A stretch of 64,000 nucleotides of DNA, taken from Chryseobacterium fluminis (GTDB lineage: Bacteria > Bacteroidota > Bacteroidia > Flavobacteriales > Weeksellaceae). Of this stretch, positions 2,226 through 25,966 are shown piece after piece (the first letter of the stretch is position 1; each line of letters starts with the position of its first letter). A program made the translations under genes and the position numbers. The stretch covers positions 4,650,001 to 4,714,000 of the forward strand of contig NZ_CP111121.1 of assembly GCF_026314945.1 (NCBI RefSeq). Reading direction: 5' to 3'. The notes below the pieces were generated by a model, which searched no databases, had not been told where the DNA came from, and was given only the letters and a program-made list of their open reading frames with translations.

Positions 2226-3779
2226 TTAATATACAGATATTTTCTTTTTGATGACACCTTCTTTAGTCTGTACTAAAACAACAACCACAGACTGTTTAAA
2301 AGCTCCTGCCTCAATGGAAATATGGGTGTCAGAGGTAGAAATCTGATGCAATATCCGTCCGTCTGTTCTATATATTTCAACACGTTTCTGTCCCGGTATG
2401 GTGTTTATTTTTATCGTTTTCTCAAGAGAATTATACGTTATATTACCATTTGCAGCCGGCTTGCTTCGAACTGTACCAAGAACTGCAGATGAGCTGTTAA
2501 TAACATTATAGGTATTAAACCAGTTATTTCCAAGATATTCAGGTAGCGAAGCCAGACCAAAAAGCATGGTGGAGAAATCGATAGCCTGTATATAAGATGA
2601 TCTCAGGGAAGTACTATTCTGACGGTATCTCCAGAGTACTTTTTTAGAGGGATCAGAAACTAAGCTGTAAACAGCAGGGCCCGTACCGTCATTATATAAA
2701 CTCAGTAAATCAGCTTTACTTTGAGGGTTTACAGGAATAAAACCTGCTACAATATGAGGAGAGACGATTCTTTGTGGATTGTTCTCTACGGCATCGGCAG
2801 AATACCCTCCTCCTGGAATATCTCCCGCTCCCATGCCCCATTCATAAGCGCTGAATCCTATATTTTCGCTGTACAGTTTATCACTCTTTCTGGTACTGTC
2901 AAAATAATCCATATAGGCTGTATTGTTTTTATAGTAGTTACATAGGTAATAGCTGAACTGGGGAATAAAGCTGGATAGCCAGTATTGTCCGTCTGAAAGT
3001 GTAACATGTCCCCAATAATTGACATGAGGTACCGGTGCGGAAACAGGGTTAGCAAAATAAGTATTCCAAAAGGTCTGGGATGCGGCATAATTAGGATGAG
3101 AAGCAGGTGCATTTTTTGCAAGCCACGAAACCAGTATATATTCATTAAATGGACTGGTAGGCGCACTTCCGTTTCCATTCTGATCCAGAATCATATAAAT
3201 ATTATTTTGTCCGATAGCTTTGGTGTAGTCCATGGCGTTCAGAATGGTGTTAGCCTTGGCTACAATGGACGGATTGGAGGCAAAATAGTTTTTACAGAAA
3301 ATAATTCCCATAGCAAAAATGGCGTTGTCTATGGTACTGTATTCACTGGACCATGCCTGATCACCTGTATTGTAGTCAAAATACCGGTAGAACAATCCTG
3401 CTGAATTTGTCTTTCCGGCATTTTTAAAATTAATAAATGTCTGGAGGGTCGTGTTAACCTGATCGGCAGCATTCGTCTCCCAATGGGCCTGGTCTCCGGT
3501 TTTCTGATACATGGCATCTGCTATGCAGAGCGAAATTAATCCTATTCCGTTCGCTACAATAGCAGCGGGTTTATCGCCTACACCATTCAGGGCCAACGCA
3601 TCAAGATAGATCCCGTTGGGCTTTCGGATGTCTTTATACAAACGGTAAGAATTCTGAAACAGAGCGGTGATCGTAGGGTTTTCAGTAGTTTGCGCCTTCA
3701 CTGATAAACTAAGTGTTCCGATGCAGTAAAGGATTAGAAATAAAAGCTTATTTCCGGATTTTAAGCATGTTGTTTTCAT
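2226..3779 (-). CDS. Secreted glycoamylase-like (GH144-type) protein with T9SS sorting domain
   Basis: The 517-residue product has a signal peptide (residues 1-29, cut after VKA) and an alpha-helical toroid-like region. Around residues 130-160 lies a YRYFDYNTGDQAW...STIDNA block, and around 314-347 an EWGMGAGD...SPHIVAGFIPV block. Both resemble the glycoamylase-like family (Pfam glycoamylase-like, related to GH144 endo-beta-1,2-glucanases). Residues from about 445 to the end form a small beta domain ending KKKISVY, like a T9SS type A sorting domain, so the protein is probably exported to the surface or medium. Substrate cannot be read from the sequence. A -7 box (TACATTTG on the minus strand, 3861-3868) lies about 80 bases upstream. 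The gene is divergent from the first M36 protease. Confidence 0.7.
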   Translation of the reverse strand: MKTTCLKSGNKLLFLILYCIGTLSLSVKAQTTENPTITALFQNSYRLYKDIRKPNGIYLDALALNGVGDKPAAIVANGIGLISLCIADAMYQKTGDQAHWETNAADQVNTTLQTFINFKNAGKTNSAGLFYRYFDYNTGDQAWSSEYSTIDNAIFAMGIIFCKNYFASNPSIVAKANTILNAMDYTKAIGQNNIYMILDQNGNGSAPTSPFNEYILVSWLAKNAPASHPNYAASQTFWNTYFANPVSAPVPHVNYWGHVTLSDGQYWLSSFIPQFSYYLCNYYKNNTAYMDYFDSTRKSDKLYSENIGFSAYEWGMGAGDIPGGGYSADAVENNPQRIVSPHIVAGFIPVNPQSKADLLSLYNDGTGPAVYSLVSDPSKKVLWRYRQNSTSLRSSYIQAIDFSTMLFGLASLPEYLGNNWFNTYNVINSSSAVLGTVRSKPAANGNITYNSLEKTIKINTIPGQKRVEIYRTDGRILHQISTSDTHISIEAGAFKQSVVVVLVQTKEGVIKKKISVY

Positions 3780-4081
3780 AATTGTGTGGTATTTGTAAAT
3801 TAAATTTAAAATATTTTAAATTTTGAAAAGAAAAACTGGGAATCATTTTTCTTGACAATACAAATGTAAGTATTTTGAAAATAAATGAAATTTTCAGGAG
3901 GCCCTGATTAAAGGTTAAAATACTATGAATATGAATAAACGATTTAAATTTGTCGTTTAGCAATTATTAATTCAGTATATTTTTATAAATTATTAAAAAT
4001 AAATTAAAATATTGTGTTATTTTGCAAAATATATATTATACGATTATTAATAATTGTAGTTTAGCAACTTTATTGGTTTAT
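3780..4081. other. Divergent intergenic region between glycoamylase-like gene and M36 protease
   Basis: This very AT-rich 302-base gap has no coding signal. It holds candidate -7 boxes on both strands: TACATTTG on minus (3861-3868) for the glycoamylase-like gene and TAAATTTG on plus (3945-3952) for the protease. No operator or repeat was recognised. Confidence 0.4.
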
Positions 4082-6691
4082 ATGAAAAAAATAATTCTAC
4101 CACTTTCAATTGCGGTCTTCGCAGTTTTACCATTAAATTTATTTTCTCAGGATAATCATACATTAATTAAGGAGTATATTTCTCAAAATAAAATTAAAGA
4201 ATATAAAAAATCAGACCTTACCGATTTTATTATTGATAATGTAGATCCCTCAAAATCTTTGGATGGTGATATCGTAAAATTTCGGCAGGTTTACAAAGGG
4301 TTTCCTGTATATCATGCTGCTGGGACTGCTCTGATCAAAGATAAGAAAGTGACTTACTTTTCTGAGAATTTCGTGAAAAATTACCAGGAAGCAGGTCCGG
4401 ATCATGCGGGATTATCCAGAAGTGATGCGCTCCAGAAAATAGCAGAAGCGCTCGGAAATACAGAGATTTCCGATTTTACCATTCTGAACTTTCTTGAAAA
4501 ATCTGTAAATGACAATAAATCAGCAAAGCAAAGACTCGTTTATCATTATGATATTAATGATCAATTGCGTCTGGCTTATGAATATATTTTAAGAGAACCC
4601 AAATCTGCCAACTACTGGAATATGATTGTAGATGCTGGTGATGGGAAGATTCTTGAAAAAACCAATCTGACATCGTCATGTGATTTTACTGCCGATGCTT
4701 ACTCTTCGGATCTCACTCATTATCGTGATACAGAAATGCATCAGTTGATAGGACCTGACAGTAAAGCTCATCAAAATTTTGTATTGTTTTCCCCTGACAA
4801 TGCATCTTATAATGTATTTCCGCTGCCCCTTGAAGCAGCGACATTTGGATCAAGATCCATGATTTCAAACCCATGGCTTCTCAGTGCATCACCTGAAGGA
4901 TGGCATTCTGACGGAACGACGCATTATACCAATACCAGAGGAAATAATGTATATGCTTATGAAGATACGGCCAATACCAATAATCCCGGTTTATCCCCGG
5001 ATGGTGGAACTGCCAGAAACTTTAATTTTCCCTTCAGCATCAATGCAAACGCAGCCTTCAACCAAAATGCATCGATTACCAACCTGTTTTATTTAAATAA
5101 TAGGATCCACGATGTGTTCTATCAGTTTGGGTTTACAGAATCGGCAAGAAACTTCCAGTGGAATAATTTTGGAAAAGGAGGACTGGATGACGACGGTGTT
5201 TTTGCAGAAGCTCAGGATGGGGGAGGAACCAATAATGCTAACTTCTCTTCTCCGCCAGATTATTATAACCCAACCATGCAGATGTATATGTGGTCCACGG
5301 TTAACAGGCTGTTCTTTTATAATGCTCCGGGTACAGCAGTAACACGCACTCCCGGTGCGGGAATCGCTCAGTACGGTATGGCCTTGAATGCAACGGGAGT
5401 AACCGGAAATATACAGCTGTCTTCCGTTTTAGACGGATGTACTGCTTTGCCAGCCGGGTCACTTACCGGAAAAATAGGTTTAGTTGAAAGGGGAACGTGC
5501 TCTTTTGTCGTAAAGACAAAGAATCTGCAGGATGCAGGGGCTGCAGCTGCGGTTATTTATAATAATGCTGCTAACGGATCTTCAATTGGAGGAATGGCCG
5601 GAGTGGACGCAACGGTTACCATCCCTTCACTACTGATTACCTACGGAGAAGGAAATTTTATCAAAAGCCAGCTTTCTGCAGGTACAACAGTAAATGTTAC
5701 CCTGAAAAATGACCCTGCGACGAGTGTAACTCCCGATGGAAGCTTTGATAATGGTATTGTCACGCACGAATACGGACACGGAATTTCTAACCGCTTGACC
5801 GGAACCGGCTATGGATGTTTAAGTACGTCCGCAGATAAAGAGCAGATGGGTGAAGGGTGGTCAGATTTCTTTGCACTCATGCTAACCAATAAACCAGGCG
5901 ATAATGCTTCTGTCGCCAGGGGGATGGGAACGTATGCTGCCGGGCAGGCAATAACAGGTGGCGGGATAAGGCCTGCAAAATATTCTCCTGATTTTGCCGT
6001 CAATAGTTTTACTTACGGCGATACCAACGGGATGGAGTACAATAACGGATCTGCTATTGTTCCGGATGTACATTCCATCGGCTTTGTATGGGCTACCATG
6101 TTGTGGGACCTGCACTGGAAGTACGTGGAAAAATATGGATATTCTTCTGATGTGACTGCTAATGCAGCAAGCGGGAGCTCCAGAGTTTTACAGCTAGTCA
6201 CGGACGCTTTGAAACTTCAGGTCTGCAACCCCACATTTATAGACGGCAGAAATGCCATTATTGCTGCCGACCAGGCGACAACTGGCGGAGCAGACCGATG
6301 TATGATCTGGAATACGTTTGCCAGAAGAGGATTGGGAGTAAATGCTTCGGCAGGCGTTAAAACCAATATTAATGACCAGGTCGAAAGTTTCAGTGTTCCG
6401 GATGATTGTGCTGTACTTTCTGCAAATGAAGTAAAATCTGTAAAAAACCGTCTCTCCATCTATCCAAATCCTGCTAAAAATGAGTTCTTCATTCATTTTC
6501 CGGATAAAACCATGGGGAAAGTAAGTGTTGAAATTTACGATATGTCAGGAAAATTGGTTTCATCCGAAGATAAAATTTCTCCGGATGCTACAAAGGCGAT
6601 TTCAACAGACAAATTGGTCAACGGAACGTATATGGTGAAAGTAAAGGGACTTGCTTTTGATGCAGACTCCAAAATTATTGTAAAAAAATAA
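4082..6691 (+). CDS. Secreted M36 (fungalysin-type) zinc metallopeptidase with PA domain and T9SS sorting domain
   Basis: Extracellular endopeptidase made as a zymogen. I start at 4082 (MKKIILPLSIAVF...) because it gives a clean signal peptide; an in-frame ATG at 4022 would add 20 unlikely residues. The order is signal peptide, FTP-type propeptide (about 25-200), catalytic domain, an inserted protease-associated domain (about 443-520), the zinc motif HEYGH at 562-566 with the downstream glutamate motif EQMGEGWSD, and a T9SS type A sorting domain from about residue 800 (IYPNPAKNEF...KIIVKK). Length is 869 residues. A paralogue follows immediately. Family assignment is firm; substrate range is unknown. 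Confidence 0.93.
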   Translation: MKKIILPLSIAVFAVLPLNLFSQDNHTLIKEYISQNKIKEYKKSDLTDFIIDNVDPSKSLDGDIVKFRQVYKGFPVYHAAGTALIKDKKVTYFSENFVKNYQEAGPDHAGLSRSDALQKIAEALGNTEISDFTILNFLEKSVNDNKSAKQRLVYHYDINDQLRLAYEYILREPKSANYWNMIVDAGDGKILEKTNLTSSCDFTADAYSSDLTHYRDTEMHQLIGPDSKAHQNFVLFSPDNASYNVFPLPLEAATFGSRSMISNPWLLSASPEGWHSDGTTHYTNTRGNNVYAYEDTANTNNPGLSPDGGTARNFNFPFSINANAAFNQNASITNLFYLNNRIHDVFYQFGFTESARNFQWNNFGKGGLDDDGVFAEAQDGGGTNNANFSSPPDYYNPTMQMYMWSTVNRLFFYNAPGTAVTRTPGAGIAQYGMALNATGVTGNIQLSSVLDGCTALPAGSLTGKIGLVERGTCSFVVKTKNLQDAGAAAAVIYNNAANGSSIGGMAGVDATVTIPSLLITYGEGNFIKSQLSAGTTVNVTLKNDPATSVTPDGSFDNGIVTHEYGHGISNRLTGTGYGCLSTSADKEQMGEGWSDFFALMLTNKPGDNASVARGMGTYAAGQAITGGGIRPAKYSPDFAVNSFTYGDTNGMEYNNGSAIVPDVHSIGFVWATMLWDLHWKYVEKYGYSSDVTANAASGSSRVLQLVTDALKLQVCNPTFIDGRNAIIAADQATTGGADRCMIWNTFARRGLGVNASAGVKTNINDQVESFSVPDDCAVLSANEVKSVKNRLSIYPNPAKNEFFIHFPDKTMGKVSVEIYDMSGKLVSSEDKISPDATKAISTDKLVNGTYMVKVKGLAFDADSKIIVKK

Positions 6692-22926: not shown

Positions 22927-23925
22927 ATGTCATCACGCAGAAAATTTCTTAAAAATACCGCTTTAGCATCATCCGCATTATTATTGAACCCGCTGGATCT
23001 GATGATGGCTAACGGCTTACCTCAGAATGACACAAAAATAGTCAACAAACCCATTGTACTGTCAACATGGAATTTTGGTCTGAAAGCTAATGAAGAAGCC
23101 TGGACTGTTCTCGGAAAAGGAGGAAGGGCTTTAGACGCTGTAGAAAAAGGCGTACGTCTGGTGGAAAATGACCCGGAAGAAAGAAGTGTGGGCTACGGCG
23201 GACGTCCTGACAGGGATGGAAGAGTAACGTTAGACGCCTGTATTATGGATGAAAATTATAATATCGGATCTGTTGCCGCTCTTGAGAATATTAAAAACCC
23301 GATTTCTGTGGCCAGAGCCGTCATGGAGAAAACGCCACATGTGATGCTGGTTGGCGACGGAGCTTTACAGTTCGCCGTTTCCCAAGGCTTTAAAAAAGAA
23401 AATATCCTTACGCCGGAATCTGAAAAAGAATGGAAAGAATGGCTGAAAGACAGTAAATATCAACCGATTGTCAATATCGAAAACCATGATACCATCGGAA
23501 TGATTGCTCTGGATGCCCAGGGAAATCTTTCCGGAGCATGTACTACCAGCGGAATGGCTTTTAAAATGCATGGCCGGGTGGGGGATTCTCCGATCATCGG
23601 AGCCGGTTTGTTTGTCGATAACGAAGTCGGCGCAGCTACCGCAACAGGTCATGGTGAAGAAGTCATCAGAACCGTGGGAACCCATCTGGTCGTCGAACTA
23701 ATGCGACAGGGAAGAAAGCCACAACAGGCATGTAAAGAAGCAGTGGAAAGAATCGTGCAGATTACCAGGAAAAGAAATAAAAACCTGAAAGATATTCAGG
23801 TTGGCTTTATCGCGATCAATAAAAAGGGGGAATATGGTTCGTACTGCATTCAGGACGGATTTAATTTCGCGGTGTATGATCAGAAAGGAAACCGTCTGGA
23901 AAAACCTGAATTTGCGTTAAGATAA
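22927..23925 (+). CDS. N4-(beta-N-acetylglucosaminyl)-L-asparaginase (glycosylasparaginase)
   Basis: Ntn hydrolase that cuts the GlcNAc-Asn bond left after N-glycan trimming. The 332-residue precursor has a signal sequence with two arginines (MSSRRKFLKNTALASS), suggesting export, possibly by Tat. Autocleavage should occur before Thr189 in ENHDTIGMIALD, which makes Thr189 the catalytic nucleophile, as in the flavobacterial enzyme. RVGDSPIIGAGLF and ATGHGEE are the other family blocks. It follows the GH20 gene and precedes cutC and the beta-mannosidase. Confidence 0.93.
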   Translation: MSSRRKFLKNTALASSALLLNPLDLMMANGLPQNDTKIVNKPIVLSTWNFGLKANEEAWTVLGKGGRALDAVEKGVRLVENDPEERSVGYGGRPDRDGRVTLDACIMDENYNIGSVAALENIKNPISVARAVMEKTPHVMLVGDGALQFAVSQGFKKENILTPESEKEWKEWLKDSKYQPIVNIENHDTIGMIALDAQGNLSGACTTSGMAFKMHGRVGDSPIIGAGLFVDNEVGAATATGHGEEVIRTVGTHLVVELMRQGRKPQQACKEAVERIVQITRKRNKNLKDIQVGFIAINKKGEYGSYCIQDGFNFAVYDQKGNRLEKPEFALR

Positions 23926-23983
23926 TTCTGGATTTTTATCCGATGTGTTAAATCCTGACGAATCCGTTTGGATCATCAATAGG

Positions 23984-24036
23984 AACGGGCTTCAGCCCGT
24001 TTTTAAAAATATGAACGTTCAATTGGCTTCAGCCAA
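23984..24036. repeat. Double-hairpin REP-like element in the cutC leader
   Basis: Two small hairpins lie side by side: AACGGGC-ttca-GCCCGTT (23984-24001) and TTGGC-ttca-GCCAA (24023-24036), with a GAACGTTC palindrome between them. The element is perfect in the first array copy. In the other three copies the first hairpin has lost one or more pairs, while the start codon context is kept. Probably a dispersed flavobacterial palindrome caught inside the array. Confidence 0.65.
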
Positions 24037-24051
24037 AACCTATAAATCAAT

Positions 24052-24243
24052 ATGTCAAAAATAGAAATAGCCTGCTTCAATCCTGAGTCCGCCATCATCG
24101 CTTCTGAAAACGGGGCCGACAGAATAGAACTCTGTGACGGGTTAAGCGAAGGCGGAACAACCCCGGATTTGGAAACTACAAAACTCAGCCTCATCATAGA
24201 GTCATCAATAGGAACGGGCCTTAGCCCTTTTTCAAAAATATAA
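24052..24243 (+). pseudogene. Truncated cutC copy 1
   Basis: A 63-codon frame. Residues 1 to about 43 match CutC (SKIEIACFNPESAIIASENG onward), then a junction-derived tail (LSLIIESSIGTG...) leads to a stop. It lacks nearly all of the TIM barrel, so the peptide cannot be an enzyme. The start context equals that of the intact gene, so it may still be translated. Confidence 0.8.
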
Positions 24244-24280
24244 ACGTTCAATTGGCTTCAGCCAAAACCTATAAATCAAT

Positions 24281-24472
24281 ATGTCAAAAATAGAAATAGC
24301 CTGCTTCAATCCTGAGTCCGCCATCATCGCTTCTGAAAACGGGGCCGACAGAATAGAACTCTGTGACGGGTTAAGCGAAGGCGGAACTACGCCAGACTTT
24401 GAAACTGCAAAACTCAGCCTCATCATAGAGTCATCAATAGGAACGGGCTTCAGCCTGTTTTCAAAAATATAA
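24281..24472 (+). pseudogene. Truncated cutC copy 2
   Basis: Same structure as copy 1, with small differences (Asp-Phe for Asp-Leu near residue 40 and Ala for Thr near 43). It ends in the same junction-derived tail. Confidence 0.8.
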
Positions 24473-24509
24473 ACATTCAATCGGCTTCAGCCACAACCTA
24501 TAAATCAAT

Positions 24510-24701
24510 ATGTCAAAAATAGAAATAGCCTGCTTCAATCCTGAGTCCGCCGTCATCGCTTCTGAAAACGGGGCCGACAGAATAGAACTCTGTGACGGGT
24601 TAAGCGAAGGCGGAACTACGCCAGACTTTGAAACTGCAAAACTCAGCCTCATCATAGAGTCATCAATAGGAACGGGCTTCAGCCCTTTTTCAAAAATATA
24701 A
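24510..24701 (+). pseudogene. Truncated cutC copy 3
   Basis: Same structure; it differs from copy 2 by Val for Ile at residue 15 and a few silent or tail changes. Copies 2 and 3 share changes absent from copy 1, suggesting the array grew stepwise. Confidence 0.8.
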
Positions 24702-24738
24702 ACATTCAATCGGCTTCAGCCACAACCTATAAATCAAT

Positions 24739-25401
24739 ATGTCAAAAATAGAAATAGCCTGCTTCAATCCTGAGTCCGCCATCATCGCTTCTGAAAACGG
24801 GGCCGACAGAATAGAACTCTGTGACGGGTTAAGCGAAGGCGGAACTACGCCAGACTTTGAAACTACAAAACAGCTTAGAGAAAAAATAAATATCCCGATC
24901 TTCGTAATGATCCGTCCTCGCGGTGGTGATTTTACCTACTCTGACGAAGAATTCGAACAGATGAAATCTGCAATGGCTAACCTGAAAACCTTACAGGTAG
25001 ACGGTTTTGTTTTTGGGATTTTAAATGAAAATGATGAGGTGAATATCAAACAGAACACAGAGCTTGTGGAGTTGGCAAAACCTTATCCCTGTACGTTTCA
25101 CCGTGCCTTCGACAGGGCAAGAGATTTAGAAAAGTCTTTGGAAAAAGTGATTCAGTGTGGTTTTAAAACCATCCTCACCTCAGGTCAGAAACCAAATGTT
25201 TCGGAGGGTAAAGAAAACCTTAAAAAGCTGGTTGAGCTATCCGGAGGAAGAATTGAAATCCTTGTCGGCGGAGGGCTGCGCTCTGCCAATATTGAAGAAC
25301 TCAGGGATTATACCAAAGCAGAATACTTTCATTCATCCGCCATTACGGATAACGGCAATTTTTCAAATCCCAATGAAATTGCGGCTTTGAAAAATAAATA
25401 A
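24739..25401 (+). CDS. cutC: CutC family protein, intact copy
   Basis: A TIM-barrel protein of 220 residues. Family signatures include EIACFNPESAIIASENGADRIELC, SEGGTTPDFETTKQL, VMIRPRGGDF and LVGGGLRSANIEEL. CutC was named for copper tolerance in E. coli, but its biochemical role is uncertain. In this window it lies between a glycosylasparaginase and a beta-mannosidase, which hints at a link with glycan use rather than copper (inference). It is the last unit of the 229-bp array, so its leader is the fourth copy of the duplicated region. Length is slightly short but complete. Confidence 0.9.
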   Translation: MSKIEIACFNPESAIIASENGADRIELCDGLSEGGTTPDFETTKQLREKINIPIFVMIRPRGGDFTYSDEEFEQMKSAMANLKTLQVDGFVFGILNENDEVNIKQNTELVELAKPYPCTFHRAFDRARDLEKSLEKVIQCGFKTILTSGQKPNVSEGKENLKKLVELSGGRIEILVGGGLRSANIEELRDYTKAEYFHSSAITDNGNFSNPNEIAALKNK

Positions 25402-25575: not shown

Positions 25576-25966
25576 ATGAAAATAACACAAATGACAGAAA
25601 ATGATTCATCCTATAAAATTATAGGAGCAGCTTTAGAAGTACACCGGAATTTAGGAGTAGGCTTATTGGAAAGCGGTATGAAATAGCTCTGGCCTATGAA
25701 CTTAAGAATCTTTATCTTGATATTCGGCAACAAATTTCATTACCCCTTAAATATAAAGATAAAACCATTAAAAATGCATATAAACTGGATTTAGTGGTCG
25801 AAAATAAAGTGATCGTAGAGATAAAATCTACCTTAGAATTACATCCGGTCTTTTATTCACAGCTATTAACCTATTTAAAACTAACCAATCTGAAGCTGAA
25901 CTTCATATTAATTTTAATACCTCACTTATAAAACACCGAATACATCGAATTGTAAATAAACTATAA
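25576..25966 (+). pseudogene. GxxExxY family protein, broken by two frameshifts
   Basis: The first frame encodes MKITQMTENDSSYKIIGAAL and continues EVHRNLGVGLLES, a clear GxxExxY-family start, then stops after GMK. The next frame continues RYEIALAYELKN...YKLDLVVENKVIVEIKS...LLTYLKLTNLKL, and a third frame ends INFNTSLIKHRIHRIVNKL. Two missing bases (near 25672 and near 25905) would restore about 130 residues, the usual length. The final stop overlaps the mannosidase ATG (TAATG). The function of the family is unknown. It could be a real pseudogene or two sequencing errors. Confidence 0.85.

Follow-up and report, generated by a model that had tools for sequence, protein, structure and literature searches.

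The locus examined here lies within a window of 64,000 nucleotides of the Chryseobacterium fluminis genome (contig NZ_CP111121.1, positions 4,650,001 to 4,714,000) and comprises the cutC gene, an upstream gene of the Asparaginase_2 family and, between the two, a tandem array. When analyzed by TRF, this array was recorded as a single repeat at 23973-24871 (period 229, 3.9 copies, 96% matches, 0% indels, score 1651); besides it, only one 12-bp repeat was listed in the whole window. The features of the locus are the following.

22927..23925, + strand: Asparaginase_2-family gene, directly upstream of the array, same strand as cutC
23973..24201, + strand: array unit 1, alone in having both palindromes perfect (TRF and unit comparison)
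23975..24040, + strand: REP-like doublet of unit 1 (palindrome 1, 23984-24001; palindrome 2, 24023-24036)
24052..24243, + strand: truncated CutC frame 1, 63 aa (ORF)
24185..24201, + strand: junction tail of unit 1, 17 nt, recurring at 24414-24430 and 24643-24659
24202..24430, + strand: array unit 2 (TRF and unit comparison)
24281..24472, + strand: truncated CutC frame 2, 63 aa, residues 3-40 matching PF03932
24431..24659, + strand: array unit 3 (TRF and unit comparison)
24510..24701, + strand: truncated CutC frame 3, 63 aa (ORF)
24660..24871, + strand: array unit 4, 212 shared bases, continuing into the whole cutC gene
24739..25401, + strand: full-length cutC, 220 aa (PF03932)

Both TRF and the sequence bore out the four 229-bp units reported in the initial annotation, which start at 23973, 24202, 24431 and 24660. 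Each of them includes, as first described, a pair of palindromes, an ATG and a stretch of cutC codons; the number of shared codons is 44 and not "about 42". The doublet of unit 1 recurs at +229, +458 and +687. The three upstream frames of 63 aa, and the passage of the last unit into the whole gene, were likewise recovered. The period equals 1 modulo 3, and each upstream frame terminates ahead of the next ATG. As unit 4 is complete, the number of units cannot shift the cutC frame.

Over 211 compared columns, the copies differ from each other at 4 to 13 positions, corresponding to a pairwise divergence of 1.9-6.2% (copies 1/2, 11 columns; 1/3, 13; 1/4, 11; 2/3, 8; 2/4, 6; 3/4, 4). Changes common to copies 2 and 3 had been taken as a sign of stepwise growth. 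One column (206) is indeed exclusively common to these two copies, but columns 45, 52 and 64 join copy 3 to copy 4 and column 27 joins copy 1 to copy 3. The groupings given by columns 27, 45 and 206 are mutually incompatible and require exchange between copies or repeated change; the copies are mosaic, and the conflicting groupings leave simple stepwise growth without support. In codons 36-40, five in succession, copy 1 departs from all the other copies at each third position, a pattern that resembles a short conversion tract. Furthermore, variable columns amount to 1/107 in the first coding bases versus 9/79 in the leader (Fisher p 0.002). This low variation of the coding bases may be due to conversion by the live gene, selection on the short frames being a less likely cause.

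The cutC region in related genomes

The cutC loci of relatives were obtained from named records, 153 being found and 80 of them retained. In 38 of the 80 loci, a similar asparaginase C-terminal motif closely precedes cutC, and none of the 80 carries the 229-bp array. The initial annotation had proposed a search for the unit in other Chryseobacterium genomes: repeated CutC starts were present in one of the 173 genomes of the genus, that of the window, and absent from the other 172. A second genome with two CutC matches (G159) was rejected as a candidate, its matches belonging to one gene split between two frames, with no array.

Repeats of other kinds were observed around cutC. Arrays of 6-8-bp period, e.g. 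(TTAGAAA)n or the telomere-like (TAAACCC)n, are found near the cutC start in 11/80 loci; (TAAACCC)3 was present in 3 of 39 relatives searched, own genome included (at two other places). Downstream of cutC, arrays with a period of 148-272 bp occur in 9/80 loci, one of them being also listed at a double period of 405. The latter arrays hold ACGCAAAG or CTTTGCGT, which are the ends of another palindromic element. They are followed by a GxxExxY-like gene in 8/9 loci, the ninth locus ending within its array; in L131, this gene matches TIGR04256 and PF13366. The positions of these arrays within their loci are given below.

6-8-bp arrays, about 2890-3000: L070, L072, L073, L079, L080, L082, L088, L092, L099, L117, L120
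Arrays after cutC, about 3650-4570: L075, L104, L118, L131, L133, L142, L144, L147, L148

In the window itself, a GxxExxY-like gene, apparently split between two frames, lies downstream of cutC at 25589-25931. Between 20642 and 28455, genes for a GH20 hexosaminidase, an asparaginase_2-family protein, CutC and a GH2 protein follow on one strand, which suggests a glycan-degradation cluster.

A REP-like doublet dispersed in the genus

The palindromes had been described as a cutC leader. When the leader of unit 1 was used as query in a DNA search of its own genome, 16 places were matched at E≤1e-3, namely the four units and 12 further places; both palindromes are covered at 10 of the latter and just the first at 2. 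The element is laid out, with variation, as ATCAATAGG, AACGGGCTTYAGCCCGTT, a spacer and TTGGCTTYAGCCAA. For its core GGCTTYAGCC, 66 occurrences were counted, the reversed pattern giving 24. Of the 173 genus genomes, 124 contain an exact 25-mer from the element (reversed control, 0), with a maximum of 25 exact copies in any of them. Given the 12 further places and the 124 genomes, the leader is not specific to cutC and has to be considered as a dispersed REP-like doublet.

Among the relatives' cutC loci, a doublet is situated ≤150 nt from the cutC start in 7/80, and two more have a single palindrome at this place. Such single doublets before cutC indicate either that the element occupied this site before the array was formed, or that it was inserted there more than once. 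Elsewhere in the own genome (C2:880293-881221), three doublets lie together and no tandem array was formed.

In the available parts of the literature, REP, BIME and REPIN elements are associated with RAYT transposases (PMC2817692, PMC3116915), and REP elements usually exceed 100 copies per genome (PMC2817692). The doublet is similar to the REP elements so described in that its palindromes are short, paired and dispersed over the genome; it differs from them by its abundance, the 16 places in its own genome being far from the usual >100 copies (PMC2817692). In the portions of the papers at hand, including PMC6006769, PMC3733652 and PMC2817692, no description of the element in Chryseobacterium was recognised.

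The doublet was also found inside arrays in other genomes, with periods of 233 (L150), 168 (L152), 198 (L153) and 138 (L154). These represent 4/9 REP regions that had been picked for close spacing, the remaining 5/9 having no array of doublets. A less selected set was then considered, composed of the first 40 REP loci in the list of 25-mer matches, in which places within about 2 kb were merged; those in the own genome, and one close to the end of a contig, were omitted. Arrays with a period of 60-600 bp were present in 2/40 REP loci versus 1/40 control loci. Both positive loci were already known beforehand, two of the 40 REP loci are shortened by contig ends, and the non-coding bases amount to 18,740 in the REP set versus 11,910 in the control set. 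An enrichment of arrays at the elements, and hence their promotion by the element, found no support in these numbers. A 167-bp array with 2.9 copies was observed at L103 (6169-6660); it has no REP-like doublet and repeats the apparent end of the downstream GH2-type gene. The doublet arrays in other genomes and this array without doublet indicate that such arrays arise repeatedly.

A Y1 transposase gene beside the doublet in relatives

In L153, the array adjoins a gene of 142 aa coding for a Y1 transposase (PF01797, 96.5 bits). Matches to this protein were obtained at E≤1e-20 in 121/173 genomes and at E<1e-40 in 81. The 30 best-scoring loci (L160-L189) were inspected for doublets within ≤140 nt before and ≤120 nt after the gene. 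A direct doublet was present upstream in 28/30, an inverted one downstream in 24/30 and both in 23/30, and in most of the 30 loci the doublets lie 85-102 nt before the gene and ≤120 nt after it. No doublet was found in 40 control loci (120,040 bases). The first palindrome of the doublet nearest to the gene is interrupted in L153, which was consequently counted as a miss.

The motif YIKNQEKHH of the L153 protein corresponds to the Y---Q--HH of TnpA-Y1 subclass 1.2, as given in the available text of PMC6006769. In that text, the members of this subclass generally lack typical terminal secondary structures. The transposase resembles the subclass as described there (PMC6006769) by its motif, its 142 aa, its occurrence in Bacteroidetes and its few copies per genome, and departs from it by the doublets that flank the gene. 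The NCBIfam model for IS200/IS605 was passed (62.1 bits for a cut-off of 55), and the score with REP_Tyr_transpos (RAYT) was below the cut-off (34.7 versus 80 bits). In relatives, though not in the own genome, the arrangement is similar to that of RAYT units as outlined in the accessible part of PMC2817692, i.e. two copies, inverted relative to each other, that enclose a transposase gene from the IS200/IS605 superfamily; at the protein level, unlike RAYT, the enzyme scores below the NCBIfam cut-off and does not belong to that family.

The 25-mer is present in 73/81 genomes with the transposase gene versus 51/92 without it, a comparison in which the flanking copies count themselves and relatedness is not corrected. 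After subtraction of 1, 2 or 3 flanking copies, p was 9e-5, 0.02 and 0.27, respectively, again uncorrected for relatedness. The numbers of doublets do not clearly follow the presence of the transposase, and, as this dependence fades once the flanking copies are removed, the transposase readings are rendered slightly less probable. On the basis of the flanking arrangement, the transposase may be the spreader of the doublets. The doublet and the small transposase look like an undescribed pairing.

In the own genome, the closest paralogue of the L153-type transposase is 32% identical and has a different repeat family beside it. The three Y1 genes of this genome (L061, L062, L063) showed no such doublet in the approximately 3.3 kb around each of them. 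One of these (L061, C2:4878514-4879242) is a second Y1 transposase in which YIKNQKEHH was read by eye; it adjoins another repeat family (AACCCGATAGGGTT...), with three copies upstream, one inverted copy downstream and one more elsewhere.

Origin and significance of the cutC array

The unit, as read by eye, starts 2 nt before the conserved left end ATCAATAGG of the element. The junction 18-mer CTCAGCCTCATCATAGAG is restricted, within the own genome, to the three junctions of the array, and no other source of the 17-nt junction tail was found in this genome within 2 mismatches. The tail ends in TCATCATAGAG, which is two edits from TCATCAATAGG, the left end of the element; 0.35% of 20,000 random AT-rich 17-mers came equally close to this end, in a test devised once the tail had been seen. 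The tail fits a filler copied in template switching at the element.

We consider that the array is probably a near-neutral tandem duplication that arose at a dispersed palindromic element and began at its left end. A REP-like element with two palindromes separates cutC from the asparaginase-family gene. The segment from the left end of the element to cutC codon 44, with a short filler, would have been duplicated in tandem in this lineage, presumably by hairpin-provoked slippage or template switching in replication and then by unequal recombination. Afterwards, the copies would have exchanged sequence or changed in parallel, and translation of the short frames may occur as a by-product. The duplication would be near-neutral because the last unit always retains the complete cutC start region. 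In bacteria, VNTRs and partial-gene tandem duplications consist of head-to-tail copies with conflicting sequence changes. The cutC array shares both characters; what sets it apart is the presence of a REP-like doublet and of a gene start in its unit.

A one-ended transposase event would also be compatible with the exact left boundary. In this event, a Y1/HUH enzyme would have cut the left end of the element and used a surrogate right end inside cutC, the captured 229-bp piece being inserted alongside the original. The start of the unit 2 nt before a conserved end, the element-like sequence in the junction tail and the doublets flanking a transposase gene in relatives are in line with such an event. 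We nevertheless judge it unlikely, as the best match to that transposase in the own genome has 32% identity and the units in L150 and L152 reach about 30-50 bp further upstream than the element, so that the precision of the boundary is not general.

It had also been proposed that the array alters cutC expression through stacked leaders or additional start sites upstream. The four near-identical start contexts on the cutC strand and the almost invariant first 107 coding bases speak for a regulatory array. On the other hand, the predicted hairpins, which reach -10.8 and -5.4 kcal/mol in unit 1, are both weaker in unit 4 (-6.8 and -3.6 kcal/mol), the unit preceding the real gene, and the other 172 genomes of the genus have no such array; the proposal gained no support and appears improbable. 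TAnnTTTG is a promoter motif, and none was found in 23901-24760. This is a weak point against regulation: the motif is likewise absent before the two upstream genes, and its absence at the array therefore says little.

A contingency locus, in which a variable number of units would switch cutC on and off, is more improbable still. Several kinds of tandem repeats do flank cutC in the genus (6-8 bp, 11/80; 148-272 bp, 9/80), but a change in the number of units leaves the cutC frame unshifted.

Using a 63-aa frame as query in a protein search, we retrieved a protein (P0002, in a cluster of 7 members) that is also 63 aa long and 94% identical over its full length, junction tail included. Its letters match none of the three truncated frames of the window exactly. 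Although the array is based on one assembly, an artefact is very unlikely, since copies 1, 2 and 3 each carry private changes, the contig of the window is 5.06 Mb long (5,062,016 bases) and P0002, which the window does not encode and which comes from a contig of 322,325 bases, has the same truncation and tail. P0002 suggests that the array has persisted, leaving room for function. With full-length CutC as query, two matches of 99% and 97%, both on short contigs, were obtained among the best 120 of 359.

Taken by itself, the cutC array adds one modest case to the known partial-gene tandem duplications. It also calls for caution in annotation: at this locus, a palindromic leader should not be labelled a regulator, nor a short CutC-like frame a gene, unless evidence is at hand. 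A wider reading, which we hold to be a long shot, is that Chryseobacterium harbours an undescribed REP-like system. In such a system, a subclass 1.2 HUH transposase would move the doublets as single-stranded units, occasionally in a one-ended manner that captures gene starts, and the cutC array would be its fossil. What matters more than the array is that a genus-wide doublet regularly flanks a subclass 1.2 transposase, which makes of them a small element-transposase pair amenable to bench experiments.
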